IMG/VR virus record: IMGVR_UViG_3300010391_000160
Coordinates: 1-34,485 of that record
From: a virus
DNA length: 34,485 nucleotides
Direction: 5' to 3' (one strand)
In this document: positions 2,646 to 21,778 of the stretch, in pieces
Layout: each line of letters begins with the position of its first letter
Position numbering within the stretch: the stretch's first letter is position 1
Position numbers and translations under genes: made by a program
The notes under the pieces: model-generated
Database searches by the model: none
What the model saw: the letters and a program-made list of their open reading frames with translations, nothing else
Told to the model about the DNA's origin: nothing

Positions 2646-3134
2646 ATGCTGAGCAGGATGAAAACATTCCGTGCGGTCTTTGTTCTGGCGATTCTGGCGT
2701 GCAGCAGTGCACGCGCCCAGAACGTCCCCGACTCCTTCAGCGCCTATATCGCCATCACCAACCCGTCCAGCCAGGCGATCACCCTCCAGAAGCCCACCGC
2801 CTCAAACCGGGTGATCCGGCCGCAGGCGGCGTGGATTCACTGCACCGTCGCCACCACGGTCACGCTCGAAGTGCGCGGGACGGCGGCCACCACCACCACA
2901 CTGGCGATCGTGCCACTCACCCAAGGCAGCACGACGGCGCAGGCGTTCTCCGCAAGTAACGTCGGAAGCGGTTCGACCGTGGGCGTCTACGAGATCGGTG
3001 CCGGGGGGCAAGGCGTCACAATTGATCTGACGGGTATTGCCTTGCGCGGCGGCGCCTCGACGGAAAACCTGACGTTGCGCCCGGCGAACTCGACCAGCAC
3101 TCTCAAGGTTCTCATATGGTTCAACGAGCAGTAA
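2646..3134 (+). CDS. Sec-exported small fibre-like protein 1
   Basis: This 162-aa protein has no recognised family. Residues 1-24 form a signal peptide: basic start, hydrophobic run FVLAILA, and a cleavage site of A-R-A before Gln25. A lipobox reading around Cys19 is possible but a poor fit. The mature part is Thr/Ser/Ala-rich and beta-like, typical of fibre or decoration proteins. The start at 2646 is preceded by AGGAGG with an 8-base gap; the internal ATG at 2658 has only weak Shine-Dalgarno. It follows TerL directly and its 3' end overlaps the next gene by 19 bases. A Sec signal is unexpected for an assembled virion part, so a role outside the capsid should be considered. Confidence 0.8.
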   Translation: MLSRMKTFRAVFVLAILACSSARAQNVPDSFSAYIAITNPSSQAITLQKPTASNRVIRPQAAWIHCTVATTVTLEVRGTAATTTTLAIVPLTQGSTTAQAFSASNVGSGSTVGVYEIGAGGQGVTIDLTGIALRGGASTENLTLRPANSTSTLKVLIWFNEQ

Positions 3135-3604
3135 CCGCCTTCGTGCTCCTGTCGATGCTGGCAGTAGGTATTCTATTGCCGCAAGTCCCCAAGCCAGGCG
3201 GCGGCGGCGGCGGCGGTACGGTGAGCGCGACCGGCGCGGCTGCAAACGATGTCGCCTGCTATACGACTGGCACGAACGTGGGTCCATGCTCGACGGGCAC
3301 GCTGACCGTTGTGGGCGGCGCGCTCACCTTGGTGAAGCAAGCCGACACCGCCAGCGCCGCAACCATCACGGTGGACAGCGGGAACTCGGTGGTCATCACC
3401 GGCACGGTCACCATCACGGCGCTGAACACCTGCAACGCTGCAAACGCAGGGCGCTTCGTGCTGTTGACCTTCGCGGACGCGCTCACCGTGACCGACGGCA
3501 GCAACCTACTTCTCGCTGGGAACTTCTCGACGACAGCGAATGACACGCTGTTTCTGTGGTGCGACGCGACCAACTGGCGTGAAATTTCCCGGAGCGTGAA
3601 CTGA
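3116..3604 (+). CDS. Fibre-like protein 2 with N-terminal hydrophobic segment and polyglycine linker
   Basis: 162 aa. Residues 4-22 are strongly hydrophobic after one Arg, consistent with a signal peptide or membrane anchor, although no clear A-x-A cleavage site is visible. A Pro-Lys-Pro stretch then leads into seven glycines (~residues 28-34). The remaining ~120 residues contain Val/Thr-rich strands and a closing NWREISRS phrase, like the small beta modules of phage tail fibres. It overlaps the upstream gene by 19 bases and ends in TGATG with the next, so the three genes 2646-4698 are one translational block. Function unknown; the fibre assignment is by resemblance. Confidence 0.75.
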   Translation: MVQRAVTAFVLLSMLAVGILLPQVPKPGGGGGGGTVSATGAAANDVACYTTGTNVGPCSTGTLTVVGGALTLVKQADTASAATITVDSGNSVVITGTVTITALNTCNAANAGRFVLLTFADALTVTDGSNLLLAGNFSTTANDTLFLWCDATNWREISRSVN

Positions 3605-4698
3605 TGAATCGAACGGCGTTGGTCCTTGCGTTGGCTCTCAGCCTCACGGTGGTGGGCATCGTCGCTTCGCGCTACGGTGCGAGCGCCCAGACCTACAACC
3701 CCGGCGGGGCGCTCCTGCCCGGCAAGGGTGGCGATCTCGCTTCCGCCGCGACCATCACGCCGACCAACATCTTCCATGACGTGACCGGCACGACCACCAT
3801 CAACACCGTCACGGCACCGGCGGGGATTCAGGCCGGTCAAAGAATTACGTTGCGTGCCAAAGGCCTATGGCTTCTAGGTACTTCCGGCAATGTTCAGGTG
3901 GGCGTGACAGCGGTCATCGACAGCCTGCTCGATCTGCTCTGGGACGGAACGAAGTGGAACCCGAGTTATGTGGTGGCTGGCGCGAAGGGCGGAACCAAGG
4001 GCGGCCAACCAGCAGCGACCACGGTCCCCGCCGGAACCTTGTACGTTCCGACAAACGACTACGTTTGGTCCCGCAGCGATGGAACGAACTGGGAAGCCTA
4101 CGGCCTAAAAACGCAGTTCGTGTTGCCAGTGAATGCGGACTTTGCCTGGGTCAACCAAGGGACTGCATCGGTTTCTACGAACGAGAGCGGCATCTTTTTG
4201 CGCGCGCCCGCGCCATCTCCGATATCGGAGCAATATCGGATACGAAAGAAAGCCGCGCCAGCAACGCCGTGGACATTGCAACTGACGTTCCTGCCGCACA
4301 TCCACGAATATAACGGGACGGCTCGGGTCGGCATTGTGCTCCGCGAATCGTCGACCTCGAAGATCACGACGTTTTCAATCGACAACGAGGCGGGCGTCCA
4401 TAAATGGAGCATCGCAAACTTTAACGACGAGTTCGGTGCTGGGGGAGCCTTCGTTAGACGACCGGCCAGCTATCAATTCTGGGACGGCGTGCTTCCTATG
4501 TTCGAGGTTTCGGATGACGGCACAAATCTCAAATTCGCGCTCTATGCCGATTACTTCAACCGGATCCAGGTTCACTCCGTCTCGCGGACATCGCACATGG
4601 CAGGCGGCCCCAATGAGATCGGTTTCTTTGTGAGTAACGGCGGTCAGGGGTTTGGCCTTGATATGGGCGGGACATTTTTTCATTGGAAGGTTACCTAG
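3604..4698 (+). CDS. Sec-exported fibre/lectin-like protein 3
   Basis: 364 aa. Residues 1-28 are a signal peptide with A-S-A before Gln29. Residues ~45-125 are a fibre-type beta module (TITPTN, VTGTTTINT, WDGTKW). Residues ~185-364 resemble the concanavalin/LamG-like jelly-roll domain seen at the ends of phage tail fibres: FAWVNQGTASV, IRKKAAP, GIVLRESST, SDDGTNLKF and the closing HWK. That domain usually binds surface glycans, so a receptor-binding or surface-adhesion role is plausible. The start overlaps the upstream stop by one base. The domain is recognised from its pattern; the link to a signal peptide is observed here. Confidence 0.75.
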   Translation: MNRTALVLALALSLTVVGIVASRYGASAQTYNPGGALLPGKGGDLASAATITPTNIFHDVTGTTTINTVTAPAGIQAGQRITLRAKGLWLLGTSGNVQVGVTAVIDSLLDLLWDGTKWNPSYVVAGAKGGTKGGQPAATTVPAGTLYVPTNDYVWSRSDGTNWEAYGLKTQFVLPVNADFAWVNQGTASVSTNESGIFLRAPAPSPISEQYRIRKKAAPATPWTLQLTFLPHIHEYNGTARVGIVLRESSTSKITTFSIDNEAGVHKWSIANFNDEFGAGGAFVRRPASYQFWDGVLPMFEVSDDGTNLKFALYADYFNRIQVHSVSRTSHMAGGPNEIGFFVSNGGQGFGLDMGGTFFHWKVT

Positions 4699-4701
4699 CA
4701 C

Positions 4702-4842
4702 ATGAAGCGAACGCGGACAGCCGATATCGAAAGTTCAGCCTACGATTGGCGCAAGCACCAGGGCCGCCCCAAGGTCGAGAAGGTCATGGGCGCGAATATT
4801 CCGGACTTAGGATTAACCATTCCTCACTTTGTGGCCCAATGA
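4702..4842 (+). CDS. Truncated DUF6496-like protein (46 aa)
   Basis: A 46-codon frame starts three bases after the previous stop and ends in an ATGA overlap with the next gene. Its middle, AYDWRKHQGRPKVEKVMG, matches almost residue for residue the centre of the protein encoded just downstream. Its last ~15 residues are unrelated to the downstream copy, so the conserved C-terminal half of the domain is missing. It looks like a tandem duplicate that has lost or replaced its end. It may still be expressed because both junctions are tightly coupled. Confidence 0.6.
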   Translation: MKRTRTADIESSAYDWRKHQGRPKVEKVMGANIPDLGLTIPHFVAQ

Positions 4843-5180
4843 GCGATTTTCTTGACCGCCTGCTTCCTTCGCGCAAACTGCTGCGGAAAGCTGCGGGCGA
4901 GAAAGAGCCAGAACCGGCCGCGCCGCCCCAGGACACCCGCTACATCAAGCGCCAGATCGAGGAGCACATGAAGAAAACCCGGCCGCCGGACATGGAGTCA
5001 CACGCCTACGACTGGCGCAAGCATCAAGGCGGGCGCCCCAAGGTCGCCAAGGTCATGGGCGAGTTCAAGGAAGGCACGCTCAAGAGCAGCAGCGGCGCGA
5101 AGGTGACGAAGCGGTCGCAGGCATTGGCGATTGGGATGAGTGAAGCGGGCCTGAGCAAGAAGAAGGCGAGCCGGAAGTAG
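4839..5180 (+). CDS. DUF6496-like small protein
   Basis: 113 aa, starting at the ATG in the ATGA overlap. Residues ~1-45 are charged and helical with an Ala/Pro stretch. Residues ~58-113 carry the conserved pattern KVMGEFKEGTLKSSSG, KVTKRSQALAIG and MSEAG with a lysine-rich end, which I recognise as the DUF6496 type found in many phages near the portal gene. Its function is not known; the basic tail suggests nucleic-acid contact. Only three bases separate it from the portal start. Confidence 0.75.
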   Translation: MSDFLDRLLPSRKLLRKAAGEKEPEPAAPPQDTRYIKRQIEEHMKKTRPPDMESHAYDWRKHQGGRPKVAKVMGEFKEGTLKSSSGAKVTKRSQALAIGMSEAGLSKKKASRK

Positions 5181-5183
5181 CCG

Positions 5184-7238
5184 ATGCCCAAAGACGAAGA
5201 CCTCCTGAAAGACATCAGGGCAAATTTCGACTATCAGATGGCCCATTGGCGCGAGGTCCGCGAAGAAGCGCGCACCGACATGAAGTTCGTCTCAGGCGAT
5301 CCCTGGCCGGCTGATGAACGCCGATCACGCACCGCCGCCGGACGCCTGTGCCTTACGTTCGACGAACTGAGTCAGAACGTCAACCAAACCGTCAACGAGG
5401 CCCGGATAAACAAGCGAGCCATCAAGGTCGCACCGAAAGGGGCTGGCGCAACTGACGAACTCGCCAACTTCCGCGCTGGCAAGATTCGGGATATCGAGTA
5501 CCGCTCGAACGCGCAGGGGGCCTACGCCATGGCCTTCCAGAACGCGGTCGAGCGGTCCTATGGGTATTTCAGGATCAGTGCGCGCCCCACCGGGTCGGGC
5601 ACCTTCGATCAGGAACTTGTCATCCTCCCTGTCCCGAACCCGGACGCCGTGTTGCTCGACTGGGACGCGCGCGAGCCGGATTTTTCCGATGGGCAGGAAG
5701 CCTTCGTGATCGACACGATCTCCACCAGCCAATTTGCGAAGCGCTGGCCGGATGCCGAAGCCAAGACGTTCACCGGCGAGATTGCCCAGCTTGCGCCGTC
5801 TTGGATCAAAGAGAACGGCATCCAAGTCGCCGAATATTGGCGCGTCGGGAGCAAGAGCCGTACTCTCCTGCTGTTGGCCAACCCGCCCGCGGAACCCACG
5901 AAGATTTACCTCGATGAAATCAAGGGCGCCCGGCTCCAGGGCAACATACTGGTGCTTCCCGATGGCAGCGAGCGCCAAGTGCTCAAGCAGCGCCGGACGC
6001 CCGACCAGACCCTCACACAGTACATCACCAACGGCATTGAGATCCTGGAACGCACCCCCTGGCGCGGCAAGTGGATTCCGATTGTCCCGGTGATGGGCAA
6101 GGAGATGTACGTCGATGCCGGGGCCGGGTCGAAGCGCGTGATCGAATCGCTGATCCGCAAAGCGCGAGAGCCGTTCCTGCTCTACTGCTACACGCGCACC
6201 TGCCAAGCCGAGTTGGTTGGCATGATCCCCAAGACGCCGTTCGTGATGTACCAGGGGCAGGACGAGGGGCACGAGGACGACTGGAAGGACATCAACAGGA
6301 AACCGCTGGGCTATATTACGGTCAAGCCGATGGTCGATGGGGCCCCTAACCAGCTATTGCCGCTTCCGTCGCGCCCACAGTATGACCCGCCTCTTCAAGG
6401 TCTGGAGTTGCTGGCTGAGGCCGCCCGGCGGGCTATCCAGGCGGCCATGGGGATCGGCGCGTTGCCCACCGCGGCGCAGCGCCAGAACCAGAAATCCGGC
6501 GTGGCCTTGGAGCGCATCCAGCAGGCGCAGGAGCGCGGGTCGTTTCACTTCATCGACAATTTCGACCGTGCATTGGCGCACGGCGGCCGGATTTTGAACG
6601 ACCTTCTGAAGTACTACTACGACAACGAGCGTGACGAGGCAATCCGCAAGCCAGACGATTCCGTGGAGCTCATCCACATCAACGGGCCGTACACGGACAA
6701 AGCCGGCCAGGAGTGCTGCTTGAAGATGGACCAGGGAGAGTTCGACGTGACCATCACCGCCGGGCCAAGCTACCAGAGCCAGCGGGAAGAAGCCGCCGAC
6801 TTCGCCGACACCCTGGCCAAGATGCCGGAAACCTTCTCGAAGATTGGCGATCTGATCGTGCGGATGCGTAACCTTGGCCAATGGGGAGACCAGATGGCCG
6901 AACGCCTCACGCCGCCGGAGTTCCGAAAGGACCGGCCGCCCATCCCGGCTGAGGTCCAGGAGGCCCTGCAGCAGTTGCAGGCTCAACTTGAGGCCGCCAA
7001 GCAGGCGCTCGCCCAGGCCGAGTTCGAGAAGAAGGCCAAGACCGCCGAGCTCGAGAGCAAGGAAGGGATCGTGGCCCTCCAAGAGCAGACCAAGCTGGTG
7101 GTCGCCACGCTCCAGGTTGACCTTCAGGCCGCCCAGTCCATGCTCCAGGGGGAGTTGGCGGCCATCCGGGAGCAGCTTCAGTTGTTCGTCAAGACCAGCG
7201 CCCTGGAGGCGAAGCCCGGGCCGGAGGCGGGGGCTTGA
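5184..7238 (+). CDS. Portal protein, P22 type
   Basis: 684 aa, close to the length of P22 gp1. The portal forms the ring at one vertex through which DNA enters and leaves, and docks terminase and tail adaptors. The N-terminal half shows the P22-portal style (FDYQMAHWREVREEARTDM, SQNVNQTVNEARINKRAIKV, SYGYFRI, FDQELVI). The middle holds the stem/wing region with GYITVKP and the helix around GIGALPTAAQRQNQKSGVAL. From ~residue 580 a long Gln/Ala/Glu-rich coiled coil replaces the P22 barrel helices. The start follows the DUF6496-like gene by three bases. Confidence 0.92.
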   Translation: MPKDEDLLKDIRANFDYQMAHWREVREEARTDMKFVSGDPWPADERRSRTAAGRLCLTFDELSQNVNQTVNEARINKRAIKVAPKGAGATDELANFRAGKIRDIEYRSNAQGAYAMAFQNAVERSYGYFRISARPTGSGTFDQELVILPVPNPDAVLLDWDAREPDFSDGQEAFVIDTISTSQFAKRWPDAEAKTFTGEIAQLAPSWIKENGIQVAEYWRVGSKSRTLLLLANPPAEPTKIYLDEIKGARLQGNILVLPDGSERQVLKQRRTPDQTLTQYITNGIEILERTPWRGKWIPIVPVMGKEMYVDAGAGSKRVIESLIRKAREPFLLYCYTRTCQAELVGMIPKTPFVMYQGQDEGHEDDWKDINRKPLGYITVKPMVDGAPNQLLPLPSRPQYDPPLQGLELLAEAARRAIQAAMGIGALPTAAQRQNQKSGVALERIQQAQERGSFHFIDNFDRALAHGGRILNDLLKYYYDNERDEAIRKPDDSVELIHINGPYTDKAGQECCLKMDQGEFDVTITAGPSYQSQREEAADFADTLAKMPETFSKIGDLIVRMRNLGQWGDQMAERLTPPEFRKDRPPIPAEVQEALQQLQAQLEAAKQALAQAEFEKKAKTAELESKEGIVALQEQTKLVVATLQVDLQAAQSMLQGELAAIREQLQLFVKTSALEAKPGPEAGA

Positions 7239-7249
7239 AACAGAAAGGC

Positions 7250-7278
7250 TTGAAAATGTTCCTGTGATGGTCTATAGT
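7250..7278 (+). promoter_or_regulatory. Internal sigma70-type promoter before the scaffold/coat genes
   Basis: TTGAAA at 7250-7255 and TATAGT at 7273-7278 are separated by exactly 17 bases, each 5/6 to consensus. A start near 7285 would give extra transcripts for scaffold and coat, the most abundant virion proteins, or a short leader RNA ending at the hairpin at 7345-7401. It lies in the longest untranslated gap of the late operon up to that point. Confidence 0.6.
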
Positions 7279-7284
7279 GGCAGG

Positions 7285-7401
7285 TGAACGAAGGCCAAGG
7301 CCCATGACGGTGGGCTGAGGCCAGTACCCCAGAGGGCAGCTTTCGAAAGGGCGGCCCGGGTGGAGCCTACCGGCTTCATTCGGCCGCCCTTTCTGCTTTC
7401 T
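7285..7401 (+). ncRNA. Candidate ~115-nt structured RNA or attenuated leader
   Basis: The stretch runs from the predicted start of the internal promoter to the T-rich end of the terminator-like hairpin. It holds a first stem GCCCA(7300-7304)/TGGGC(7311-7315), nested in GGCC(7293-7296)/GGCC(7319-7322), then the 12-bp stem at 7345-7393. No open frame explains it. It could be a free small RNA, or a leader whose hairpin tunes read-through into scaffold and coat. This is inference; no known RNA family was recognised. Confidence 0.3.
7345..7401 (+). terminator. Terminator-like hairpin between portal and scaffold
   Basis: GAAAGGGCGGCC (7345-7356) and GGCCGCCCTTTC (7382-7393) form a perfect 12-bp stem with a 25-base loop. 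The run TTTCTGCTTTCT continues to 7401. The tract is T-rich rather than pure T, so partial termination or RNA processing is more likely than a full stop. It lies just downstream of the promoter at 7250-7278. Confidence 0.5.
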
Positions 7402-7426
7402 GGGGGCAGGAAATGAGGAGAACGCA

Positions 7427-8446
7427 ATGCCCGACGTAGACGTAGCGGCATCGTCACCCGCAACAGCAGCACCGCCGCCAGCGGCCCCGGTCGAGGAATA
7501 TCAGACACCCGACCTGAGCACCCTGAGCGGTGAGCAGTACCAGAAGTGGCGGCAGACCGGGGAAGCCCCGGCCGTCGCGCCGAAACCTGCGGACTCGGCA
7601 CCCGCGAAGGACGCCGCGCCGAAAGGCGAAACCGCGCCGGCCACGGACCCGGAACCCAAAGTTGAGGAGCCGAAGAAGGCGAAAGGCGCCGAGGCGCGCA
7701 AGGAACAGCTACACCTCGAAGTCCAGGAAGCATTACGTGAACGCCGGGAGGCCCTGAGACAGCTCGAAGAAGTACGGGCCACGCTCGCACGGGAAAGAGG
7801 CGATAAGTCGGCTACGCCCGCCGCATCGTCCGAGCCAATAGGCGAACCGTTGCTCAAGGACTTCCTGGAAAATGCCGAGACCTACGAGGCCGGCCAGCAG
7901 GAGTTCCAGCGCGCGCATTCGCAATGGGCCATCGAACAGCACGAAGCCAAAAGGCAAGCGGCTGAACAAGAGCGCACCGTTGCGGAGCAGCGCGAGGCTT
8001 TCGCCCAGCGGGTCGAGAAAGACGCTGTCGGGATCGAGGATTACGACGCGGTGATGGCCGGGGCCAAGCGGTTGACGCCGACTTCGGCCATGTGGACTGC
8101 GTTCTACGAGTCCGAAATGCCCGGCAAGCTCATTTATCACTTGGCGAAGAATCCGCAGGAGTTCGCGCGGATCGCGGCGCTTAGCCCGGCAAAGTCGATC
8201 ATCGCACTCGGCAAGATCGAAGAAGGCTTGCTTTCCCCAAAGAACGGCACACCGGCTCCTCCCCTTAAACCCATCCAACATTCCAACGCCCCGCCACCGC
8301 CCACCGAACTCGCGGCCCGCAATATGGCCCCCGCAGACGAATCGGAGGCGGCGCTCGAAGAGGCCCGCAAGGGCGATCCGGGCGCTATGCGGCGCTGGAT
8401 GAGCTTGGAAAACGCGAAGGATCTGAAGAAACTCAGGGGGACCTAA
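7427..8446 (+). CDS. Scaffold-type protein
   Basis: 339 aa between portal and coat, where P22 encodes scaffold gp8. It should assemble inside the prohead with coat and leave before packaging. The first ~100 residues are Ala/Pro-rich and disordered, residues ~85-215 are highly charged and helical (long E/A/R/Q heptads), and the C-terminus ends in short charged helices (SEAALEEARKGDPGAMRRW), as scaffold proteins use to contact coat. The ATG has GAGGAGAA upstream. The call rests on position, length and composition, since scaffolds share little sequence. Confidence 0.75.
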   Translation: MPDVDVAASSPATAAPPPAAPVEEYQTPDLSTLSGEQYQKWRQTGEAPAVAPKPADSAPAKDAAPKGETAPATDPEPKVEEPKKAKGAEARKEQLHLEVQEALRERREALRQLEEVRATLARERGDKSATPAASSEPIGEPLLKDFLENAETYEAGQQEFQRAHSQWAIEQHEAKRQAAEQERTVAEQREAFAQRVEKDAVGIEDYDAVMAGAKRLTPTSAMWTAFYESEMPGKLIYHLAKNPQEFARIAALSPAKSIIALGKIEEGLLSPKNGTPAPPLKPIQHSNAPPPPTELAARNMAPADESEAALEEARKGDPGAMRRWMSLENAKDLKKLRGT

Positions 8447-9673
8447 GTGGCAAACATTTTCAAGGTAGCAGACTGGATCGCCGCACAGACCATGCGGATG
8501 CTGGTGAACAAACTGGAAGTCGCCGGGACCTTCCACACGGACTACGGTTCTGAGTATCAGCGGGACTTCGCCATCGGCGAGATCCTCCGCGTGAAACTGC
8601 CGCAGCGCTGGACCGTCCGAGAAGGTCTGGGCTATGTCCCGCAGGGCATCAATCGCCAGGAAACCACCATCACCATCGACCGGGTTTTCGGCATCGACTT
8701 CGAGTGGGATTCGCTGGAGCAAGCTCTGAAGTTGGAGCGCGGGCAGGACGCCATCAAGCGCGAATATGTGGACACCGCGGCGGCCGCCTTGGCGCAGTCC
8801 ATCGACTCACGCGCAGCCGAGTTCGCCTACCTCAACACCAACAACATCGTGGGCATCCTGGGCACCGACCCGACCACCACCAACACCGCCGGCGCGGCTC
8901 GCACGAGGTTTACCGAAAACGCCTGCCCGCCCGGAGTGCTGAACCTGATTGTCCGGCCGAAGCACATGGAGGCTGTCGTCAACGGCGGCACTGCCCTGTT
9001 CAACGACCAGGGCCAGATCGCCAAAGCCTTCAAGGAAGGCTACTACGGGCGGGCGCGCGGCTTCGACTGGACTCAGTCGATGTCGCTCTACTCGCACACC
9101 GCCGGCACATGGGCCGGTGCGGTATCCACCAGCAGCGCCGGACAGTCCGGATCGTCCATCGCTCTCACCGCGACCACCGGCGACACGTTCCTCAAGGGCG
9201 ATGTCGTCAACTTCGCCGGTGTGTTCAACGCCAATCCCCAGACTCGGCGGTCGACCGGGACGCTCAAGGAGTTTGTTGTCCAGGCTGACGTGACGGCGGC
9301 CGCTTCGGCGGCAACCATCAGCATCGCGCCGGCCATCGTCGGACCGGGCAGCCAGTACCAGAACGTGACTGCGCTCCCGGCCAACGCGGCGGCGCTGACG
9401 CTGTTTCCTGGAACCAGCTCGCCGAACGGCAAGGCTGGCACCCAGAACTTGGCAATCCATCGGGATGCTTTCGCGCTGATCGGCATCCGGCTGGGCCTTC
9501 CGAAAGCCGTCGAGTTTTCAGCCCAATCCAGGGACCCCGATACCGGGATCAACGTGCGAATCGTCCGGACCTGGGATCACGACGAATCGAAGTTCAAGAC
9601 GCGCATGGACGTGGTGCTGGGCTTCGGAGTCCTGTACGCCGACCACTGCGCGGTCCGCGTGTTGGGAGCGTAA
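8447..9673 (+). CDS. Major coat protein, P22 gp5 type
   Basis: 408 aa, close to P22 gp5 (430 aa). It forms the HK97-fold shell. Family-like features are the N-terminal arm, RGFDWTQSMSLYSHTAG in the middle, and the stretch KGDVVNFAGVFNANPQTR with the following strand EFVVQADVTA, which matches the P22-coat pattern; the end DVVLGFGVLYADHCAVRV closes the domain. Start is GTG directly after the scaffold stop TAA, so the two are co-translated. No separate decoration gene was recognised beside it. Confidence 0.9.
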   Translation: MANIFKVADWIAAQTMRMLVNKLEVAGTFHTDYGSEYQRDFAIGEILRVKLPQRWTVREGLGYVPQGINRQETTITIDRVFGIDFEWDSLEQALKLERGQDAIKREYVDTAAAALAQSIDSRAAEFAYLNTNNIVGILGTDPTTTNTAGAARTRFTENACPPGVLNLIVRPKHMEAVVNGGTALFNDQGQIAKAFKEGYYGRARGFDWTQSMSLYSHTAGTWAGAVSTSSAGQSGSSIALTATTGDTFLKGDVVNFAGVFNANPQTRRSTGTLKEFVVQADVTAAASAATISIAPAIVGPGSQYQNVTALPANAAALTLFPGTSSPNGKAGTQNLAIHRDAFALIGIRLGLPKAVEFSAQSRDPDTGINVRIVRTWDHDESKFKTRMDVVLGFGVLYADHCAVRVLGA

Positions 9674-9685
9674 GGAGAAACCACC

Positions 9686-10435
9686 ATGACCAAACTCAAG
9701 CGTGCATCACTGCAAACCATCCTGGGGTTGCTCCTGGCGGCGGTCGCCTACGGGCAGCCCACCTTCACGGCCACCACGTTGTCATCGGCCTACACCGCCG
9801 GCGACACGGTTATCAACGTGGCGTCGGCGACTGGCTTCACCGCCAAAACCACCGTGGCCCAAATCGGGCGCGAGCTCATGCAGGTGCTTACGGTGAGCGG
9901 CACCAAGATCGGGGTCCGCCCTGGGGCCTTCGGCACGCGCTCGACAAACCACGGGAACGGTATGCCGGTACTTGTCGCGGCCAACGAGAATTTCTCGGCC
10001 TGCGGCGGGGGCGGCGGCGGCGGTCCGTGCGGCTTCGCATACAACTCAGAGTTCAGCGGGGGGCCGTTCTACTCCGGCACGTTCCCCGTGACTCTCACCA
10101 CCGCCGGCGCGCTGACCTACACTGCCGGCCAGGTGCTTGCCGGGTTGATCTTGCGGGATCCGAACGGGGCAGCCAGGACCGACACGACACCTACCGCCGC
10201 GCTTCTGGTGGCCGCGGTTCCAGGGGCAATGAACGGGTCGAGCTTCCGGTTCACAATCCGCAACGATGCCGATGCGGCGGAAACCATAACCGTGGCGGCT
10301 GGCACCGGCGGAACAACCAGCGGCACTATGACCATCGCGCAGTCGAACAGCAAGGAGTTCCTGGTGCGATTCACGCGGGTGGACTCCGGCAACGAGGCGT
10401 ACACGATTTATAGCCTCGGAACCGTGGTCCATTAG
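9686..10435 (+). CDS. Sec-exported Gly/Thr-rich protein 4
   Basis: 249 aa, unassigned. Residues 1-23 form a signal peptide (KLKR, then ILGLLLAAVA, cleavage A-Y-G before Gln24). The mature part starts with a beta module (TINVASATGF type, with GTRSTNHGNGMPV), then a linker of seven glycines flanked by cysteines (~residues 110-119), then a second Thr-rich domain with TITVAAGTGG. Start has AAGGAG 8-9 bases upstream. It sits directly behind the coat gene, the usual place of a decoration protein, yet it is addressed to the Sec pathway. The two cysteines around the glycines could form a disulfide outside the cytoplasm. Confidence 0.75.
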   Translation: MTKLKRASLQTILGLLLAAVAYGQPTFTATTLSSAYTAGDTVINVASATGFTAKTTVAQIGRELMQVLTVSGTKIGVRPGAFGTRSTNHGNGMPVLVAANENFSACGGGGGGGPCGFAYNSEFSGGPFYSGTFPVTLTTAGALTYTAGQVLAGLILRDPNGAARTDTTPTAALLVAAVPGAMNGSSFRFTIRNDADAAETITVAAGTGGTTSGTMTIAQSNSKEFLVRFTRVDSGNEAYTIYSLGTVVH

Positions 10436-10455
10436 GTTCTTCCGTGCGACCACGA

Positions 10456-10500
10456 GGAGCGCCGACGTAAATCTCCTCCCCGAGTGCGCGTCGGCGCTCC
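10456..10500 (+). repeat. 12-bp inverted repeat (stem-loop) after exported protein 4
   Basis: GGAGCGCCGACG (10456-10467) pairs perfectly with CGTCGGCGCTCC (10489-10500) around a 21-base loop. No T-run follows, so an intrinsic terminator is unlikely; an RNA-processing or 3'-end-stabilising stem is a better reading. Together with the hairpin at 7345-7393 it brackets the scaffold-coat-exported protein block. Confidence 0.6.
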
Positions 10501-10515
10501 GCTGAAAGGAAAGCT

Positions 10516-10674
10516 ATGGAATACCAGGAATACCCGAAATGGATCACTACTTTGGCCGGGGAAAAGCGAATTGTCGAAAACCGAGCCGAGGAAGATGCTT
10601 GGACTCTACCACCGCCGGAACCGAAACCGCCGAAGCGGGGAAAGAAAGACGACCCTGACGACGACACCGCCTGA
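10516..10674 (+). CDS. Small acidic/basic phage protein (52 aa)
   Basis: A 52-codon gene with GAAAGGAAA as Shine-Dalgarno. It has an aromatic N-terminus (MEYQEYPKWI), a VENRAEEDAW centre, then a Pro-rich stretch and a KRGKKDDPDDDTA end. Its TGA overlaps the ATG of the next gene (TGATG). Short proteins of this shape, an aromatic start and a charged tail, occur after coat genes in many podovirus genomes. Function unknown. Confidence 0.65.
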   Translation: MEYQEYPKWITTLAGEKRIVENRAEEDAWTLPPPEPKPPKRGKKDDPDDDTA

Positions 10675-11342
10675 TGCCCTCGCTCACCACCATTGCCAAT
10701 GCGGCCGCTCGGAGTCTCGGAATCATGGACTCGGGCGGGTCGCTTTCTGCGGCGCAACTCACTGACGCCCTGACCGCCGCAAACCAGATTCTTGAAAACT
10801 GGAGCTCCGAAGGCCGGATGATCCTGACCGAGCTGCTGACCTCGTTCGCCCTGACCTCCGGCACCAACAGCTACACCATCGGGCCGTCCCAGTTCATCAA
10901 TATCGCCCGGCCAGTGCGGATCAACGCCGCGACCCTTCTGCTGACCTCCGGCCCGAGTAGCCCGGTCCAGGTGCTCCAGAGCGTAGCGGAGTGGGAAGCC
11001 CTGGAAGATCGCGAGTCCAGCAGTTTCAAGGTCGGGGCGCTGTTTTACGACCGGGCCAGCCCGACCGGCACGATCTATGTGGCGCCGAAGCCGCTGGGGA
11101 GCGCCAGCATCCAGATCGCCACCTGGGTCCCGCTGGCGCAGTTCGCCGACGTGACGACCTCGCTGACCCTGTTACCTGGCTACGAGTTGCCCGTCCGTCT
11201 TTCGCTTGCTCACATGCTGGCGCCGGAATACAGCGTCCTTTTCTCCAAGGAATCCACCGAGCGGCTGGCGATGGCCATGGCGACGCTGGAAAACCTGAAC
11301 GTGCAGCACTCGGCGGTGCCGGGTATGCCGGTGGCTGCCTGA
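10674..11342 (+). CDS. Head-tail adaptor, P22 gp4-like (copy A)
   Basis: 222 aa. The helical N-terminus (IANAAARSLGIM, LTDALTAANQILENWSSEG), the YTIGPS strand (~residues 64-69), RPVRINAATL, the FYDRASPTGTIYVAPKPLG hairpin and the closing PGYELPVRLSLAHMLAPEY are the pattern of P22 tail accessory factor gp4. This binds below the portal and closes the filled head. P22 gp4 is 166 aa, so this version is longer. It overlaps both neighbours by one base and is followed by a second, clearly related gene. Confidence 0.85.
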   Translation: MPSLTTIANAAARSLGIMDSGGSLSAAQLTDALTAANQILENWSSEGRMILTELLTSFALTSGTNSYTIGPSQFINIARPVRINAATLLLTSGPSSPVQVLQSVAEWEALEDRESSSFKVGALFYDRASPTGTIYVAPKPLGSASIQIATWVPLAQFADVTTSLTLLPGYELPVRLSLAHMLAPEYSVLFSKESTERLAMAMATLENLNVQHSAVPGMPVAA

Positions 11343-12091
11343 TGCCTACTGCCCGAACAGTCATCACCCACGCCTGCCGCCTGCTCGGCTACAGCCTTTC
11401 GGGAGCAACCCTGCCGGCGGACATCGAGACAGATGGGCGCAACGCGCTCAACGATATGATCGGAGTCTGGTTGAACGAGTCCCTGATGGTTTCCTCGATC
11501 CGTGAGGACATTTTCACGCTGACCATCAACCTGAAAACGTACACGATTGGTCCCAGTGGGGCAACCTTCACGGCGCCGCGCCCGGTCTACATCAAGGACG
11601 CGAATCTGATCTTGCAGCAGTCAACGCCCGTGGTCCGCTTGCCGATGCGGATTCTGCGCGATTCGGGCGAGTGGGCGAACATCGGCGTCCAGGACATCAC
11701 CAACTCGATCCCAGCCGCGCTCTACTACAATCCGACCATCCCAAACGGGACCATCAAGATACACCCACAACCGCTGCTGGCCTACCAGCTCGAGCTTTTC
11801 TCTTGGGCGCAACTCTCCTCGTTTGCGGACATCGCCACCACGAACTACGACCTGGCGCCGGGTTATGAATCTGCCCTGAAGTACAATCTGGCGGTCGAGC
11901 TGGCTCCCATGATCCCGGACAAGATGAAGCAGGGACGGCTCGCAATGGTGGTAACCCGGGCGCGGGAGTTGAAGGCGATTCTGAAAGGGAAGAACTCGAC
12001 GCCGCGGCGGTTATTTTCCGATGTGCCTGCCGGGGCGCGCGGCGGGGCTGATTTCGACTGGCGGACGGGGAATCTGAGGATGGCGGGGTAA
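11342..12091 (+). CDS. Head-tail adaptor, P22 gp4-like (copy B)
   Basis: 249 aa from the ATG in the TGATG overlap. It repeats the order of features of copy A: helical N-terminus with GYSLSGATLPADIETDGRN, YTIGPSG strand, RPVYIKDANLIL, GEWANI, LYYNPTIPNGTIKIHPQPL, FADIATTNYDLAPGYESAL and a helical end, plus a basic C-terminal tail not found in copy A. The two are paralogues by tandem duplication. They may form two stacked rings, or one may have taken a separate adaptor role. Confidence 0.8.
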   Translation: MPTARTVITHACRLLGYSLSGATLPADIETDGRNALNDMIGVWLNESLMVSSIREDIFTLTINLKTYTIGPSGATFTAPRPVYIKDANLILQQSTPVVRLPMRILRDSGEWANIGVQDITNSIPAALYYNPTIPNGTIKIHPQPLLAYQLELFSWAQLSSFADIATTNYDLAPGYESALKYNLAVELAPMIPDKMKQGRLAMVVTRARELKAILKGKNSTPRRLFSDVPAGARGGADFDWRTGNLRMAG

Positions 12092-12095
12092 GACT

Positions 12096-12815
12096 ATGCC
12101 TCTTGACAGCAAACTCGTAGGCGCAAACGAGCGGCTGATCTTCTGCTGGGGCGACCCGCTCACGGCCCAAGAAGCCGCTGTACTGAGCGTCATCGACGCC
12201 CGCAACCCGACCGGAAAGTTCGCCGGTCTGGTCCAGAACTTTGCATTGTTGCAAAATGCGGCCGGCACCTTCGACTTGGCGCGGGCGGCGGCCGGTACGA
12301 CCGGCATCCCGGCCGTCAACACCGAAGGCACCAAACTGAGCTATTCAGTCGGCGTGATCGACTTCCTGCCGGTGGCGACACCCACCGACTTCTGGAACCT
12401 CACCGGCTCGGCCACCAAGACCGTTCGGGTGACGCGCATCGTCATCAGCGGAATCGCCACTGCTGCGGCCAGCCGGGCCACGCAACTCATCAAGCGGAGC
12501 ACAGCGAACACCGGCGGCACGCCGACCAGCCTGACGATTCCGCCCCACGACTCGAACGACGCTGCCGCCACGGCGCTGGTGCAGACCTATGCCGCCAATC
12601 CGACCACCGGGACGAGCGTCGGCATTTTCGGAGCCGAGACTTTGAACCTGGGGGCGGCCGGAGCGGCTGGCAGAATTGAGTGGAACTTCACCACGCGCAA
12701 CAGCAAAGCCGGGGTCCTTCGCGGCGTGGCGCAATCCCTGAACCTGAACTGGGCCGCCGCTGCGGTGCCTGCCGGCACGCTGCTGGCGATCCAGGCGGAA
12801 TGGACTGAGGAGTAA
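12096..12815 (+). CDS. Unassigned phage structural protein
   Basis: 239 aa. The C-terminal ~160 residues follow a pattern I have seen in tail/structural genes of environmental phages: TDFWNLTGSATKTVRVTRI, LIKRSTANTGGT, PHDSNDAAATA, TYAANPTTGT and an IQAEWTEE end. No enzymatic motif. It lies between the gp4-like adaptors and gp10, which suggests a tail or neck component. Charge is balanced and there is no signal peptide, unlike several neighbours. Confidence 0.7.
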   Translation: MPLDSKLVGANERLIFCWGDPLTAQEAAVLSVIDARNPTGKFAGLVQNFALLQNAAGTFDLARAAAGTTGIPAVNTEGTKLSYSVGVIDFLPVATPTDFWNLTGSATKTVRVTRIVISGIATAAASRATQLIKRSTANTGGTPTSLTIPPHDSNDAAATALVQTYAANPTTGTSVGIFGAETLNLGAAGAAGRIEWNFTTRNSKAGVLRGVAQSLNLNWAAAAVPAGTLLAIQAEWTEE

Positions 12816-12821
12816 TCGAGT

Positions 12822-14303
12822 GTGCCGACCGCCCCGGACTTTGGCTTCTGCGGGCCGACCTACCAAGCGGTCTCGAAGGTCCTGGACGCTTCCCGCGCGA
12901 TAAACCTCTACCCGGAAGCCGGGTTCCCCACTTCCAAAAGCAAGGCCGCTCTCATCGGCACGCCAGGGGTGCTTCACTGGGCCACGTTGCCGTTCGGACC
13001 GGTGCGAGCGCTGTGGCCAGGCGTGGGGCGCTTGTTCGCCGTGGGCGGCACGCACGTCTACGAGCTGAACTCGCTCGGCGCGATCATCACGGATTTCGGG
13101 GCAATTCCCGGCAGCGACGGCGTCAGCCCGGTGCAGATTTTCACGGGCGGAACTAATTCTTCCAACGCGCAGTCGGCGCTGATGGATTCGAGCGTCCCGG
13201 CTATTTTTAAGGTCGGCCCAGGAATCGTATCGGTGCTCTCGAACGCCTGGGCGGTCGAGTTTCTGGACAGCTTCTACTTTGCTCTGGGGTCGCCCGGCAC
13301 AGAGCAAAATCGCATCAAGAGTTCGGACCCATTGAATCTTTCGAGCTGGCCTGTGCTGAACTTTGCTGATCGCAGTGGCAACGCCGACTTGGCCTTGAAT
13401 ATCGCCCAAGTCAACGGGCAGCTCTGGATTTTCGGAATGAAGAACCTGGAGGTCTGGGCCAATGCCGGGCTGTCGCCGTTCCCGTTGGAGCGCATCGCCG
13501 GTTCGACCATCAACACCGGCGTGTTCGCGCAGTACTCGATCCAGAAAGTCGGCAACATCATCATGTGGCTCGGCGCGAGCGAGCGCGGCTTCGGATCGGT
13601 CTATCGGAACGACGGCCTGCTTCCGGTGCGGGTTAGCCCGCCAGCCATCGAGAACATGATCGCCAGCTACCAGTTGGGCTCGGCTGGCGCAACCCAGGTC
13701 ACGGCCTTTACCTACGAGGAAGATGGCCACCTGTTCTACGTGCTGACCTTTCCGGCGACGTTGGGGAACCCCAACGGCTCGGCGCTGGCCTACGATCTGA
13801 CCACGGGCATGTGGCACGAGCGCGCCCACCTGAAAGACGATGGCGTGACCCTGGAGCGCCCGCTCTATCACTGCGTCGCCAGCTTGTCAAACTTCGGCGG
13901 CGGCGGCGCGACCCCCATCAACTTTGCCGGGGCCTGGAACAGCGGGAAAATCTATAAAATGGGCTTGCAGTACTTCAGCGACGATGGGAATCCCCGGATG
14001 TATGTCCGCACTGCGCCGCACGTCTCGGACGCGGATCGCTGGATGAAGCACGCATCGCTGCACGTCTCGGCTGACACTGGCGGCTCGACGCCGATGACGC
14101 TCGAATACTCGAACGACGGCGGCCGGACGTTCACGGGTGGACCGTACACCATCGTCCCGAGTGCCGAGGTCCCTCAGCGGTATAAGTGGTACCAACTCGG
14201 GCGCTCACGCGATCGGGTTTACAAGACGACGCTGGTTCAGTCGCACGCCGCCATCCGTCTCATCAACGCCTACCTCAACGTGGACCCTGGCACGGAGCCC
14301 TGA
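12822..14303 (+). CDS. Packaged DNA stabilisation protein, P22 gp10-like
   Basis: 493 aa, near P22 gp10 (472 aa). It sits under gp4 in the tail machine and plugs packaged DNA. Family features are the start FGFCGPTYQAVSKVLDASRAINLYPE (positions ~7-32), GTPGVLHWATLP, the FLDSFYFALGSPGTEQNRI strand pair, QLWIFGMKNLEVWANAG, IAGSTINTGVFAQYSIQKVG and a beta-rich C-terminus with ARTAP-like YVRTAPHVS and MTLEYSNDGGRTF. Start is GTG, seven bases after the previous stop. The antisense frame is also long but is a shadow. Confidence 0.85.
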   Translation: MPTAPDFGFCGPTYQAVSKVLDASRAINLYPEAGFPTSKSKAALIGTPGVLHWATLPFGPVRALWPGVGRLFAVGGTHVYELNSLGAIITDFGAIPGSDGVSPVQIFTGGTNSSNAQSALMDSSVPAIFKVGPGIVSVLSNAWAVEFLDSFYFALGSPGTEQNRIKSSDPLNLSSWPVLNFADRSGNADLALNIAQVNGQLWIFGMKNLEVWANAGLSPFPLERIAGSTINTGVFAQYSIQKVGNIIMWLGASERGFGSVYRNDGLLPVRVSPPAIENMIASYQLGSAGATQVTAFTYEEDGHLFYVLTFPATLGNPNGSALAYDLTTGMWHERAHLKDDGVTLERPLYHCVASLSNFGGGGATPINFAGAWNSGKIYKMGLQYFSDDGNPRMYVRTAPHVSDADRWMKHASLHVSADTGGSTPMTLEYSNDGGRTFTGGPYTIVPSAEVPQRYKWYQLGRSRDRVYKTTLVQSHAAIRLINAYLNVDPGTEP

Positions 14304-15685
14304 TGGCCGATGTCAACGTTCAAACGGAGTGCGTTCCACCGCTCACCACCCCGCACTTCACCGGGGCGTCGCTAACCCCCAACCCGAACGGCGAAGTGGG
14401 TTTGCTCACCTGGCCGTGGATCATGTTTTTCCGGTGTGTGGCCAAGAAGGTGGCCACCGGCGTCGTCGCCGGCGACCCAGGCACCGTCAACTTCACCCCC
14501 ACGCTGGCCGCCTACGGTATGATGAGCCTCAAGGACTTCACCCTGGGCGGTTCCGGAAAGGCCGATCTGGTCCACGTGGTCGTCTGGTACGTCGATGAGC
14601 CGGACACGCAGTATCTCTACGCCATCCTGACCGATTCGCTCAACTCGACCGACCTGACGCCCAGCCCCGGCGTGACCGTGTTCGCACGCGCCAAGGAGAT
14701 CGCCGGGGTGGTCCCCGCCTTCGCCACTGGCGACCTGGTGCTGATCGACGACTCTGGTCAGGACCCCGACGCTACCGACTTCCGCAAGTACGAGCTGGTG
14801 ACCCTGGGGACCATCACCGGCACGCAGCCGGGCGCGGTGACCTTCGCGCTGGCTTCGCGCGGGAACCTGGGGAGCACCAAGTCGGCCCACAACGCTGGCA
14901 CGCGGCTCTACAAGGTCAAGGCGGCCCACTTCGCCGTGCCGACCAAGGACAACACCGGGAACCCGAAGATCACCGGCGATGAAAGCGTGCCGCTGGCAAA
15001 CGCCTGCGTGGTGGCCATGGGCCTGGCGGCTTCCGATGTGGGGACCATCGGGACGTTCAACGTCAAGAACTGCTCGCGCCTGGCCTACCCGTTCCCTGGC
15101 ACGCTGACGCAGCGCAACCCGGCGCCGGGCTTCCGCACTTGCACCGGGGCCGAGTACACCATCCCCCTGGGCGGGGCGCTGATCGCCGGCCAGAGCTCGC
15201 CCTTCCGCTTGGTGGTATCCGAGAACGCCAGCCCGCGGAACGTGCTCGGCCGGGTGTTGGTGTCGCCGGAGGGTTCGATTGCGTTCTATGATGGGATCCT
15301 GGGCGGAGAAACCGACAAGGGGCTGATCGCCTACGTGCTGCTGATCGAGCCCCAGCAGGATGGGCTGCCCAACGGAGCGCGCCGGATAGCGGTGCTCGAC
15401 CAGCTTGCGATCATTGCGGGCGAGTTTGCCACGTTCCCGCAGAACGACGTGCTGGACTTCCGGCGGATGCCCTATCGCCCCGCCTGGCCCTTCCTGTGCC
15501 CGGTAATCGGCACCCTGGACAGCCTCTTTGACCCCGCCCTAGGGGCGCTTCGGACGGGCGTGCTGCCCTTCACGACCACCGGGGAGTTCTTGCAGATGGA
15601 GGAAGGCGGCGAGCTGGACGCGGTGATCGCCCGGGCCGGCTCGGACGTAGCGGGATCGCATTTGACTGTGACGGTGCAAACATGA
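14303..15685 (+). CDS. Tail protein, unassigned
   Basis: 460 aa from the ATG in the TGATG overlap with gp10. It opens with NVQTECVPPLTTPHFTGASLTPNPNG and a WPWIMFFRCVAKK helix, followed by beta-rich sequence with DSLNSTDLTPSPGVTVFA, LVLIDDSGQDPDATDFRKY and a SRGNLGSTKSAHNAGTRLY segment. The start resembles phage proteins that anchor fibres to the tail and then run into a jelly-roll or beta-propeller-like body. No catalytic motif is visible. It ends in an ATGA overlap with the next, exported protein. Confidence 0.7.
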   Translation: MADVNVQTECVPPLTTPHFTGASLTPNPNGEVGLLTWPWIMFFRCVAKKVATGVVAGDPGTVNFTPTLAAYGMMSLKDFTLGGSGKADLVHVVVWYVDEPDTQYLYAILTDSLNSTDLTPSPGVTVFARAKEIAGVVPAFATGDLVLIDDSGQDPDATDFRKYELVTLGTITGTQPGAVTFALASRGNLGSTKSAHNAGTRLYKVKAAHFAVPTKDNTGNPKITGDESVPLANACVVAMGLAASDVGTIGTFNVKNCSRLAYPFPGTLTQRNPAPGFRTCTGAEYTIPLGGALIAGQSSPFRLVVSENASPRNVLGRVLVSPEGSIAFYDGILGGETDKGLIAYVLLIEPQQDGLPNGARRIAVLDQLAIIAGEFATFPQNDVLDFRRMPYRPAWPFLCPVIGTLDSLFDPALGALRTGVLPFTTTGEFLQMEEGGELDAVIARAGSDVAGSHLTVTVQT

Positions 15686-17070
15686 AAAGACTGATCGCTC
15701 TGCTTCTCCTGTGCGGCCTGCACTCGATGCACGCCCAACTGGTCACCATCAACGAGGACCTGGTCGACGCCCAGGGCAACAACCTGGCCGGCTTCCTGCG
15801 GATCTCGACGCCGCCCTACCTGCTGCCGGTCGGCTCGGCCCTGACGATCACCGGCGCGACCAACGCCACCCCCATCGAGATCACCGCCACCGCCCACGGC
15901 CTATCCACGGGCCACACGGTCTACATCGTTGGGGTCCTGGGCAACACCGCGGCCAACGGGACATGGCGGATCACCAACACCGGGGCCAACACCTTCACCC
16001 TGACCAGTTCGGTCGGAAACGGCGCCTACACCTCTGGCGGCACGGCCCAGCGGCTCCTGCCGGTCGGCCCGAGCACGCGCCGGCATCCCACCAGCGGGAC
16101 CTTCAGCGGCAACATCAACCTGACGCTCGAGCCCACCACCACAGGCATCGCCATCCCCGGCGGGGCGGCGGCGGGGTTCACCCACCTGGTCAACTACGTT
16201 CTGAACGACGGGACCACCTTCAACGAGCGCTGGAACATCCCAGCCACACCGACCACCACCACCGTTTCTGCCGTGCGGGCGCCGGGGACGCTCAACCCGA
16301 CCGCGAGCGTGGCGCTCACCCAACTGGCCGACTTCGGGACCGACACCCGGAACAGCGTGATCTGCTCGGACGGAACCAAATGGACCCGGTGCCTGGTGAA
16401 CATCGCCAGCAACGCGAACACCGCGACCACCTACACCGTCGCCGACGTTGACCGGAACAAGCTGGTGACTTTCAGTAATACCAGCGCCGTGGCTGTGACC
16501 TTGCCGCAGGCGGGCGCCTCCGCACTGTTTCTTTCGGGCTGGTACGCCTGGTTCCGCAACATCAACACCGGCCTGGTCACGATCACGCCGACCACGTCGA
16601 CCATCGACGGCGCGGCGACCTTCACGCTCGGCAAAAGCCAGGACATCATGGTGGTGTCTGACGGGACCAACTACTCGGTCGCCAGAGGATCGAGCGTCCT
16701 CAGCCGCACGTCCAGTTTTTGCTCGGGCACGGCCACCAGCAGCGTCACGCTGTTCATGGTGCTGTGGCCGTCCGGGGCCTGCACCAATACGACTGAAGGG
16801 GTGACCACCGAGCTGCTGGTCAGCGCCGCCGGCACACTTCGCAATCTCCGAGTGAAGGCTGGCACGGCGGGATTCGCGGCGGGCAGCGGCGCCGTCACGC
16901 TGCGGATCAACGCAGTGAACTCGGCAGTCACCTGTACGGTAGGAACCGGCACCACCTGCTCGAACACCGCCAACGTGGCCACTGTGGCCGCCGGCGACCG
17001 GATCACCGCGCAGATCGTCACCGTGGCGACCGAGACCTTGGCGAATCTGCAAATTGCTTTCGATTACTGA
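15682..17070 (+). CDS. Sec-exported multi-module fibre-like protein 5
   Basis: 462 aa. Residues 1-18 are a signal peptide (MKRLIALLLLCG, cleavage M-H-A before Gln19). Residues ~54-115 contain an FCCH-like phage repeat: ITGATNATPIEITATAHGL, VYIVGVLGNTAANGTW, and NTFTLTSSVG with a GGTAQ end. Residues ~245-340 are a tail-fibre module (TYTVADVDRNKLVTFSNTSA, DIMVVSDGTNYSVARG). The last ~110 residues are Cys-containing and beta-like. The ATGA overlap with the upstream tail gene ties it to tail synthesis. The signal-peptide region itself carries a 23-base sequence repeated at 28455-28477. Confidence 0.75.
   Translation: MKRLIALLLLCGLHSMHAQLVTINEDLVDAQGNNLAGFLRISTPPYLLPVGSALTITGATNATPIEITATAHGLSTGHTVYIVGVLGNTAANGTWRITNTGANTFTLTSSVGNGAYTSGGTAQRLLPVGPSTRRHPTSGTFSGNINLTLEPTTTGIAIPGGAAAGFTHLVNYVLNDGTTFNERWNIPATPTTTTVSAVRAPGTLNPTASVALTQLADFGTDTRNSVICSDGTKWTRCLVNIASNANTATTYTVADVDRNKLVTFSNTSAVAVTLPQAGASALFLSGWYAWFRNINTGLVTITPTTSTIDGAATFTLGKSQDIMVVSDGTNYSVARGSSVLSRTSSFCSGTATSSVTLFMVLWPSGACTNTTEGVTTELLVSAAGTLRNLRVKAGTAGFAAGSGAVTLRINAVNSAVTCTVGTGTTCSNTANVATVAAGDRITAQIVTVATETLANLQIAFDY
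15712..15734. repeat. 23-base dispersed repeat, copy 1 (TGCA-CTCGA-TGCA core)
   Basis: Identical over 23 bases to 28455-28477 although the two copies lie in unrelated genes in different coding senses. The core TGCACTCGATGCACG also occurs at 27482-27496 and, with one change, at 22185-22199. The shared core is near-palindromic. Confidence 0.7.
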
Positions 17071-19451: not shown

Positions 19452-19452
19452 T

Positions 19453-19767
19453 ATGCCAGCCATCGTCCTGAAATCCGAGAAGCTGCGTCCGACCCTCTCA
19501 TCCGCGGGCGGCACGCCGGCGACGCTCGGATTCATGCCCTTCCTCGGTGTCCAGCTTGGGCGCGATGGGATCGACGATCCGCTGGTGGTGCTGCCTGCGA
19601 GCTATCGGATGCCCATTCCCAACGCCAACCAACCGTTTGCGAGCTCCTGGGTCTACGACTCGGTGCTGGCGCTGCCGCTGTCGGCTTGCGCGAAAGTTCC
19701 ACCGCCGCCCGATCTTCGGGCGGGCTTTCAACTGCCCCAGTACCGGAGGCCTAGGTTCCCGAGATAA
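19453..19767 (+). CDS. Small late-operon protein, unassigned (104 aa)
   Basis: 104 aa beginning at an ATG one base after the previous stop (TGATATG). It is Pro-rich, with PLVVLPASYRMPIPNANQPF and WVYDSVLALPLSACAK, and a basic end (YRRPRFPR). The sequence is not hydrophobic enough for a membrane protein. Family unknown. It closes the main block of tail genes; 45 bases separate it from the two small membrane proteins. Confidence 0.6.
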   Translation: MPAIVLKSEKLRPTLSSAGGTPATLGFMPFLGVQLGRDGIDDPLVVLPASYRMPIPNANQPFASSWVYDSVLALPLSACAKVPPPPDLRAGFQLPQYRRPRFPR

Positions 19768-19812
19768 TCCTTGCACCCGTGCATGGGCCGTGGCACTATT
19801 GGTCCTAGTACT

Positions 19813-20103: not shown

Positions 20104-20104
20104 G

Positions 20105-20852: not shown

Positions 20853-20880
20853 GGGGCCTGCACCAGTGCACGCTCGGGGA

Positions 20881-21680: not shown

Positions 21681-21778
21681 GGTTTATCTGGGCGGCGCGT
21701 TTGTTCATCAACAGAATCATTCGCATTGTTTCCGTCCCTCCAGAATCTTCTTGCCACACGCGCAGATCGCCTCGCCAT
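21677..21778 (-). CDS. Possible micro-ORF (33 aa)
   Basis: ATG at 21778 is preceded by GGGGAGGA at good spacing, and its TGA overlaps the GTG start of the next gene. The product is Arg-rich (MARRSARVARRFWRDG). It may serve as a translated leader for the next gene rather than encode a functional protein. A competing frame over the same bases ends at 21717 with CACGKKILEGRKQC, which looks like a zinc-binding end but has no start codon. Confidence 0.3.
   Translation of the reverse strand: MARRSARVARRFWRDGNNANDSVDEQTRRPDKP

Follow-up and report, generated by a model that had tools for sequence, protein, structure and literature searches.

Why would genes for the outer parts of a tailed phage encode Sec signal peptides (SPs), when the virion proteins of tailed phages are, as a rule, assembled in the cytoplasm? 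The question is raised by the IMG/VR record IMGVR_UViG_3300010391_000160, a viral contig of 34,485 bases that is referred to here, over its whole length, as the window. The window is a P22-like podovirus, with a P22-type portal (PF16510), a P22 coat protein (PF11651), a terminase and a gp10-like head-closure protein in a single rightward operon. An initial annotation had pointed to five proteins within this operon, four with Sec signal peptides (2646, 3604, 9686 and 15682) and one with a hydrophobic N-terminus (3116); these start positions serve below as gene names. Gene 9686 directly follows the gene of the major capsid protein (MCP), a place called MCP+1. As judged by comparison with relatives, the signal peptides are real and conserved, and not a quirk of one contig. 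The proteins behind them are probably virion appendages, which would leave the cytoplasm, acquire disulfide bonds in the periplasm and attach to completed particles when the cell lyses.

Signal peptides were sought by a scan of the n-, h- and c-regions, which recovered all 14 well-known E. coli signal peptides tried, rejected the thr leader, and gave false positives on 1.2% of shuffled N-termini. Among 20 late-operon open reading frames (ORFs) it called 2646, 3116, 3604, 9686 and 15682 only, the same five as before. Five calls in 20 lie far above chance, because shuffled N-termini gave so few and the portal, scaffold, tail-accessory, head-closure and terminase proteins of the relatives' loci gave none (0/303); on the latter count a chance origin of the calls was rejected. 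Three MCPs flagged by the scan were also discarded, as wrong upstream starts. The positive n-region, uncharged h-region and small residues at -3 and -1 expected of a Sec signal cleaved by signal peptidase I are clear in 2646 (MLSRMKTFRAVFVLAILACSSARA↓QN), 3604 (MNRTALVLALALSLTVVGIVASRYGASA↓QT) and 9686 (MTKLKRASLQTILGLLLAAVAYG↓QP, score 14.0), all textbook cases (the arrow marks the cut). The leader of 15682 (MKRLIALLLLCGLHSMHA↓QL) is acceptable, with good n- and h-regions and a lower score; its Met at -3 departs from the strict A-x-A end ascribed to it earlier. Gene 3116 is weak in the window and shows no clear cleavage site, and its relative in loci L002/L028 is clean (MVQRAKIVLIAVLAGVLLSG↓QVPR). 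The same two loci hold the one distinct relative of 2646, which is 74% identical and SP-bearing too.

The MCP served as the anchor for collecting relatives. Within 84,980 bacterial and archaeal genomes these were three Acidobacteriota loci, one of them in the isolate Acidicapsa dinghuensis, and a fourth, weak match of 71 residues lay in another phylum; viral contigs contributed at least 434 MCP relatives. The family is one of soil viruses infecting Acidobacteriota. Most of its members keep the signal at the same locus: MCP+1 carries an SP in 65 of 86 loci when near-duplicates are counted, and in 55 of the 72 distinct relatives whose state could be determined. Where the MCPs are 41-74% identical, the MCP+1 leaders diverge in sequence and retain the n/h/c shape and the Q after the cut. 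At least 11 changes of SP state are needed to fit the capsid tree, at least seven of them forced by well-supported branches, and because of these repeated changes the SP appears to come and go as a module within a gene that persists. Loss of the hydrophobic N-terminus in close relatives, which had been named in advance as a sign against export, does occur in a minority (L112, L134); these keep the remainder of the protein and its position, so the SP looks like an added module rather than noise.

The manner of this loss is instructive. Four full-length SP-less orthologues (L112, L134, L161 and L194) start at the mature N-terminus, with MANPTFTITTLSAAI, MALTTTTLSAAV, MTTTLTQTTLSAAV and MPASIVNTNLAVAI, the first of them, from L112, beginning at the mature N-terminus of 9686. 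Start-codon errors were rejected as an explanation, since there is no upstream room or open frame and the ATG has its own Shine-Dalgarno sequence. A conserved cysteine pair, present in 44 of 48 SP-bearing rows, is lost in three of the four SP-less full-length orthologues. An internal start giving a cytoplasmic form was likewise rejected: a start with a Shine-Dalgarno sequence was found near the cut in 0 of 52 genes and at the SP start in 43 of 52, and thus no cytoplasmic form is evident.

What the protein at MCP+1 might do is suggested by its parts. An AlphaFold2 model of 9686 (pLDDT 85.5) shows a leader helix followed by a beta domain and a C-terminal domain, with a disordered linker between these two that has two cysteines. 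The beta domain resembles the solved minor tail protein 8vjh and the tip attachment protein J of 8rk3. The C-terminal domain stands alone, without an SP, as the MCP+1 protein of other phages; it is 60% identical to its counterparts in L005 and L177 and 34% to the MCP+1 of L128/ctNMl277. Foldseek matched the model to the tailspike 24qj (E=4e-6) and the Pa223 capsid spike 9ny6 (9e-5), with the VP1 capsid 9in6 (1.4e-3) below the usual threshold; the decoration domain alone gave no significant match among solved structures. From its place directly after the MCP gene, and from the domain common to SP-less MCP+1 proteins, we read 9686 as a putative capsid decoration protein, fold similarity being what points to capsid binding. 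The PHROG 673 family that it matches is labelled 'head scaffolding protein'; here the match falls in the C-terminal domain of a gene that follows the MCP gene, whereas the scaffold position precedes the MCP gene. Tunturi 1 gp9 (locus L308, 8322-8960), likewise after a capsid gene, carries the same name, which is probably a mis-annotation propagated through a decoration family.

The cysteines of the exported proteins point the same way as their leaders. Among 51 mature MCP+1 proteins, 50 have an even and one an odd number of cysteines, and the other SP-bearing proteins divide 22 to 5, whereas the core proteins of the same loci (portal, MCP, tail-accessory, terminase and head-closure) divide 98 to 107. 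This contrast in parity within the same genomes is large, though the relatives are not independent. Tail spikes with an SP have a median of 10 cysteines, against 1 in those without. Glutamine stands at +1 in 40 of 51 phage MCP+1 leaders and in 11 of 15 sampled leaders of the host Acidicapsa. Together, the even cysteine counts and the host-style sites argue for real export to an oxidising compartment.

The same pattern is sharper still in the tail spikes of the relatives. In the SP-bearing spikes of Acidobacteriota prophages, the residues directly after the cut (↓QVAVSPWKSPHVTFSDQNGVPLAGGCVFTYLGGT) open a domain homologous to the virion-binding domain of other phages, whose profile matches the 'Tailspike head-binding domain' of PDB 7eeq (E=3e-14) and the tail spikes 9vyg/9vyh. 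By this profile the relatives' exported spikes have the N-terminal head-binding domain of P22-type tailspikes. The tail proteins of PBR31, ctNMl277, P26218 and DSL-LC05 have the same domain, begin with MAV.SP or similar, and have no leader; the coding sequence of the PBR31 spike starts where the mature SP spikes start. The mature N-termini are 42-53% identical (measured against the first row of the alignment) to SP-less spikes of proteobacterial and other phages. Among the 98 genes with this domain, the starting ATG lies at the domain itself in 78 and an SP immediately precedes the domain in 15; no leader preceded it in the annotated phages examined, mostly those of Proteobacteria. Three Acidobacteriota genomes (G001-G003) hold exactly one head-binding-domain spike each, and it is SP-bearing; G244 and G284 likewise have an SP spike, and G196 does not. 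Leaders occur on both MCP+1 and the spike in the contig IMGVR_UViG_3300044797_000021 (L179, L242) and in the prophages of L130, L131 (Acidicapsa dinghuensis 4GSKX) and L132.

Several spike loci deserve separate mention. At L218 (13693-18001; G244, Acidobacteriota) three consecutive genes carry SPs, the first being the head-binding-domain spike, and the spike gene at L219 (13584-14426; G284) is near-identical to it. L178 encodes at 8390-10855 a pectate-lyase-like spike (PF12708, phrog_7458) with a clean signal, MRVIGLLLLACSAFA↓QTAV, and the MCP+1 of the same phage is SP-bearing too. Gp40 of Xanthomonas phage PBR31 is reported to be an esterase similar to tail-associated hydrolases and to have a signal peptide at its N-terminus (PMC10975493); it may add another case to this list or assist in lysis.

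The trait also occurs in cultured phages. Tunturi 1 and 2, podophages that form plaques on Tunturiibacter (PMC11924767), have capsid proteins that look unrelated to the MCP of the window; the host of Tunturi 1 is Tunturiibacter psychrotolerans X5P2. Both have SPs on gp12, gp13, gp14 (annotated as tail spike), gp16 and gp17 (annotated as virion structural protein, with 32 cysteines), and none on the portal, the MCP or gp9-gp11. The main text of the paper describing these phages leaves signal peptides unmentioned (PMC11924767). At least two podophage lineages thus have the SP trait. It is not universal, and phages that have it can still infect productively.

These observations suggest how such a particle could be built. 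Head, portal and DNA would be assembled in the cytoplasm as usual, while the outermost parts, namely the MCP-adjacent decoration protein and the tail spikes or fibres, would be made as Sec pre-proteins. Signal peptidase I would remove the leader at a host-style site (A-x-A or A-x-G before Q), and the mature proteins would fold, form disulfides and wait in the periplasm. Once holin and endolysin breach the inner membrane, the periplasmic appendages would mix with the cytoplasmic particles and dock via their ordinary virion-binding domains, as a last assembly step during or after lysis. Such late addition is physically plausible, because P22 tailspikes join heads in vitro as the last step. Export is well supported, and incorporation of the exported proteins into virions is inferred. 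Attachment of fibres after export had been one of four ideas in the initial annotation, beside adhesin display, receptor blocking and the seeding of debris, and is the best supported of them: the proteins belong to virion-appendage families, their SP-less orthologues start at the cleavage site, and three host genomes have no head-binding-domain spike other than the exported one. The wider proposal is of a two-compartment morphogenesis, with cytoplasmic heads and DNA, decoration proteins and spikes that are secreted, oxidised and stored in the periplasm, assembly triggered by lysis, and an SP module gained or lost at least seven times at one locus, the trait having arisen in at least two unrelated Acidobacteriota podophage lineages; we hold it to be somewhat better than an even bet.

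As the chief rival reading, the exported copies might instead have a job outside the virion, such as degrading host glycans to aid release, blocking receptors against superinfection, or acting as shed decoys. Superinfection-exclusion lipoproteins such as T5 Llp do lie near tail genes. One of the SP spikes, that of L178, is a pectate-lyase-like depolymerase, and a signal-exported enzyme of tailspike fold is known, Pantoea WceF, a bacterial protein which is no virion component and whose P22-like head domain follows a Tat signal (PMC7949094). We nevertheless consider such a job unlikely: G001-G003 would be left with no other head-binding-domain spike, MCP+1 is SP-bearing as well and its SP-less orthologues in other phages occupy the decoration-protein position, and neither a consistent lipobox nor an outer-membrane anchor was found. 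Adhesin display on the infected cell, another of the earlier ideas, fares poorly for similar reasons. The five window proteins have no canonical lipobox, and 2646 was rejected as a lipoprotein, its lipobox being loose only and its cysteine absent in the L002 relative. No outer-membrane barrel or sorting Pfam domain was found in the tested window proteins, the relatives' SP proteins, or Tunturi 1 gp12-14 and gp17. Without an outer-membrane anchor, an autotransporter barrel or a consistent lipobox, stable surface display has no visible mechanism.

Export could also be incomplete, with a cytoplasmic fraction, its leader kept or otherwise trimmed, entering virions and the exported fraction being a by-product or serving a second role. 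In its favour, the spike has to get into the virion somehow, tailed phages as a rule assemble in the cytoplasm, and late expression could overload Sec. This dual fate is more doubtful still, given that the even cysteine numbers and the loss of the cysteine pair upon SP loss point to selection for folding in an oxidising environment, that no alternative internal start was found in the 52 genes, and that a retained leader would be expected to block the N-terminal head-binding domain region. That the hydrophobic N-termini are uncleaved helices anchoring the proteins in a membrane or the virion is most improbable. The lack of a clear cleavage site in 3116 and the Met at -3 of 15682 would fit it, but the small -3 and -1 residues and the Q at +1 are conserved and match host secreted proteins, and orthologues start exactly at +1.

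Against assembly of exported appendages at lysis stand several points. The strongest caution comes from WceF, because of which a head-binding domain alone is no proof of virion incorporation. A recognised virion-binding domain is absent from 15682, 3604 and 2646 of the window. The signal peptides were called by our own rule-based scan and not by SignalP, and the relatives are non-independent samples on which nominal p-values overstate. SP-less MCP+1 relatives include 13 decoration-only and four full-length proteins, and the annotated late regions of Tunturi 3 and 4 contain no SP; from the SP-less minority and these two phages, export is not obligatory for Acidobacteriota phages. What the sequences show directly is the conserved signal peptides, their confinement to appendage genes, the head-binding domain that follows the cut and the disulfide-type cysteine statistics; from these, export itself, cleavage, disulfides and docking after the membrane breach are inferred.

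If the proposal is true, the infectious particle would be finished only at lysis, with the help of host secretion and disulfide machinery. This would explain disulfide-stabilised outer surfaces in phages of acid-soil bacteria, tie the supply of spikes to lysis, and alter the ways in which receptor-binding proteins are identified and expressed. Annotation pipelines may pass over such signal-bearing genes as host or moron genes. In the open-licence PMC papers searched, no precedent was found for signal peptides on virion proteins of tailed phages.

The features discussed are collected in the table below. The initial annotation had each signal-bearing gene translationally coupled to head or tail genes. 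Overlaps were found for 15682 (4 nt with its upstream ORF), 3116 (19 nt with 2646) and 3604 (1 nt with 3116), whereas 2646 and 9686 begin 15 and 12 nt beyond the ends of TerL and MCP; coupling is thus partial. In 15682, residues 20-122, from the cleavage site on, are about 50% identical to domains inside the tail-tip proteins of other phages; its N-terminus had no PDB match to a head-binding domain, and other tail-type domains do match. Against annotated phages, 15682 and 3604 gave domain-level or partial matches only, with no close homologues. Away from the rightward late operon, an endolysin-like cell wall hydrolase (PF07486; 23492-23896, minus strand) is a candidate for lysis.

Table. Positions of genes and domains in the window and of the Tunturi 1 cluster.
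Feature	Position	Strand	Details
Small beta-rich protein (2646)	2646..3134	+	SP residues 1-24, ARA↓Q
Tail-fibre-like protein, weaker SP or hydrophobic N-terminus (3116)	3116..3604	+	phrog_33904; L002 relative SP ends LSG↓Q
Fibre- or lectin-like protein (3604)	3604..4698	+	SP residues 1-28, ASA↓Q; phrog_19068 E=6e-10
MCP+1 capsid-decoration-like protein, 249 aa, Sec SP (9686)	9686..10435	+	SP scan, relatives, AlphaFold2, Foldseek
Signal peptide of 9686	9686..9754	+	residues 1-23, cut AYG↓QPTF
Beta domain of 9686 (TTLS.A..RG..GT...H..G)	9767..9985	+	residues 28-100; common to phage tail proteins
C-terminal decoration domain of 9686	10088..10432	+	residues 135-249; phrog_673 E=4.6e-36
Fibre-like protein with E1_FCCH-type tail domain (15682)	15682..17070	+	SP residues 1-18, MHA↓Q
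Terminase large subunit	1137..2630	+	phrog_2 E=9e-28; no SP
P22-like portal	5184..7238	+	PF16510 E=2e-116; no SP
Scaffold-position protein	7427..8446	+	adjoins MCP on upstream side; family of 75, SP in 0; no SP
Major capsid protein, P22 coat family	8447..9673	+	PF11651 E=5e-23; no SP
Head closure Hc3 (gp10-like)	12822..14303	+	phrog_578 E=1e-62; no SP
Tunturi 1 (L308, PP887698) spike/fibre cluster	10371-23028		five cysteine-rich SP genes, conserved in Tunturi 2

Several known systems resemble these phages in part. Superinfection-exclusion lipoproteins encoded near tail genes, T5 Llp and phi80/N15 Cor, are like the window proteins exported products of structural regions; they are small and have a lipobox or outer-membrane targeting, whereas the SP proteins here have no consistent lipobox and include virion-binding domains. 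Filamentous phages offer virion proteins with cleaved Sec signal peptides, pIII and pVIII, but they assemble at the membrane and are extruded, while the phages here are tailed, of lytic type, and would have cytoplasmic heads. WceF resembles the SP spikes in placing a head domain after an export signal; its signal is Tat and not Sec, and its exopolysaccharide gene lies outside a phage late operon. The decoration or cement proteins of P22-like phages have in common with 9686 the position directly after the MCP and the C-terminal domain, and 9686 differs from them in having a signal peptide, an additional beta domain of tail type and a linker with cysteines. The P22-like tailspikes (PBR31, 7eeq) have a homologous N-terminal virion-binding domain, and one SP spike has a pectate-lyase-like body; known members start at this domain and are made in the cytoplasm, whereas in the spikes described here the domain is preceded by a Sec signal with a predicted cleavage site, and cysteines are numerous.

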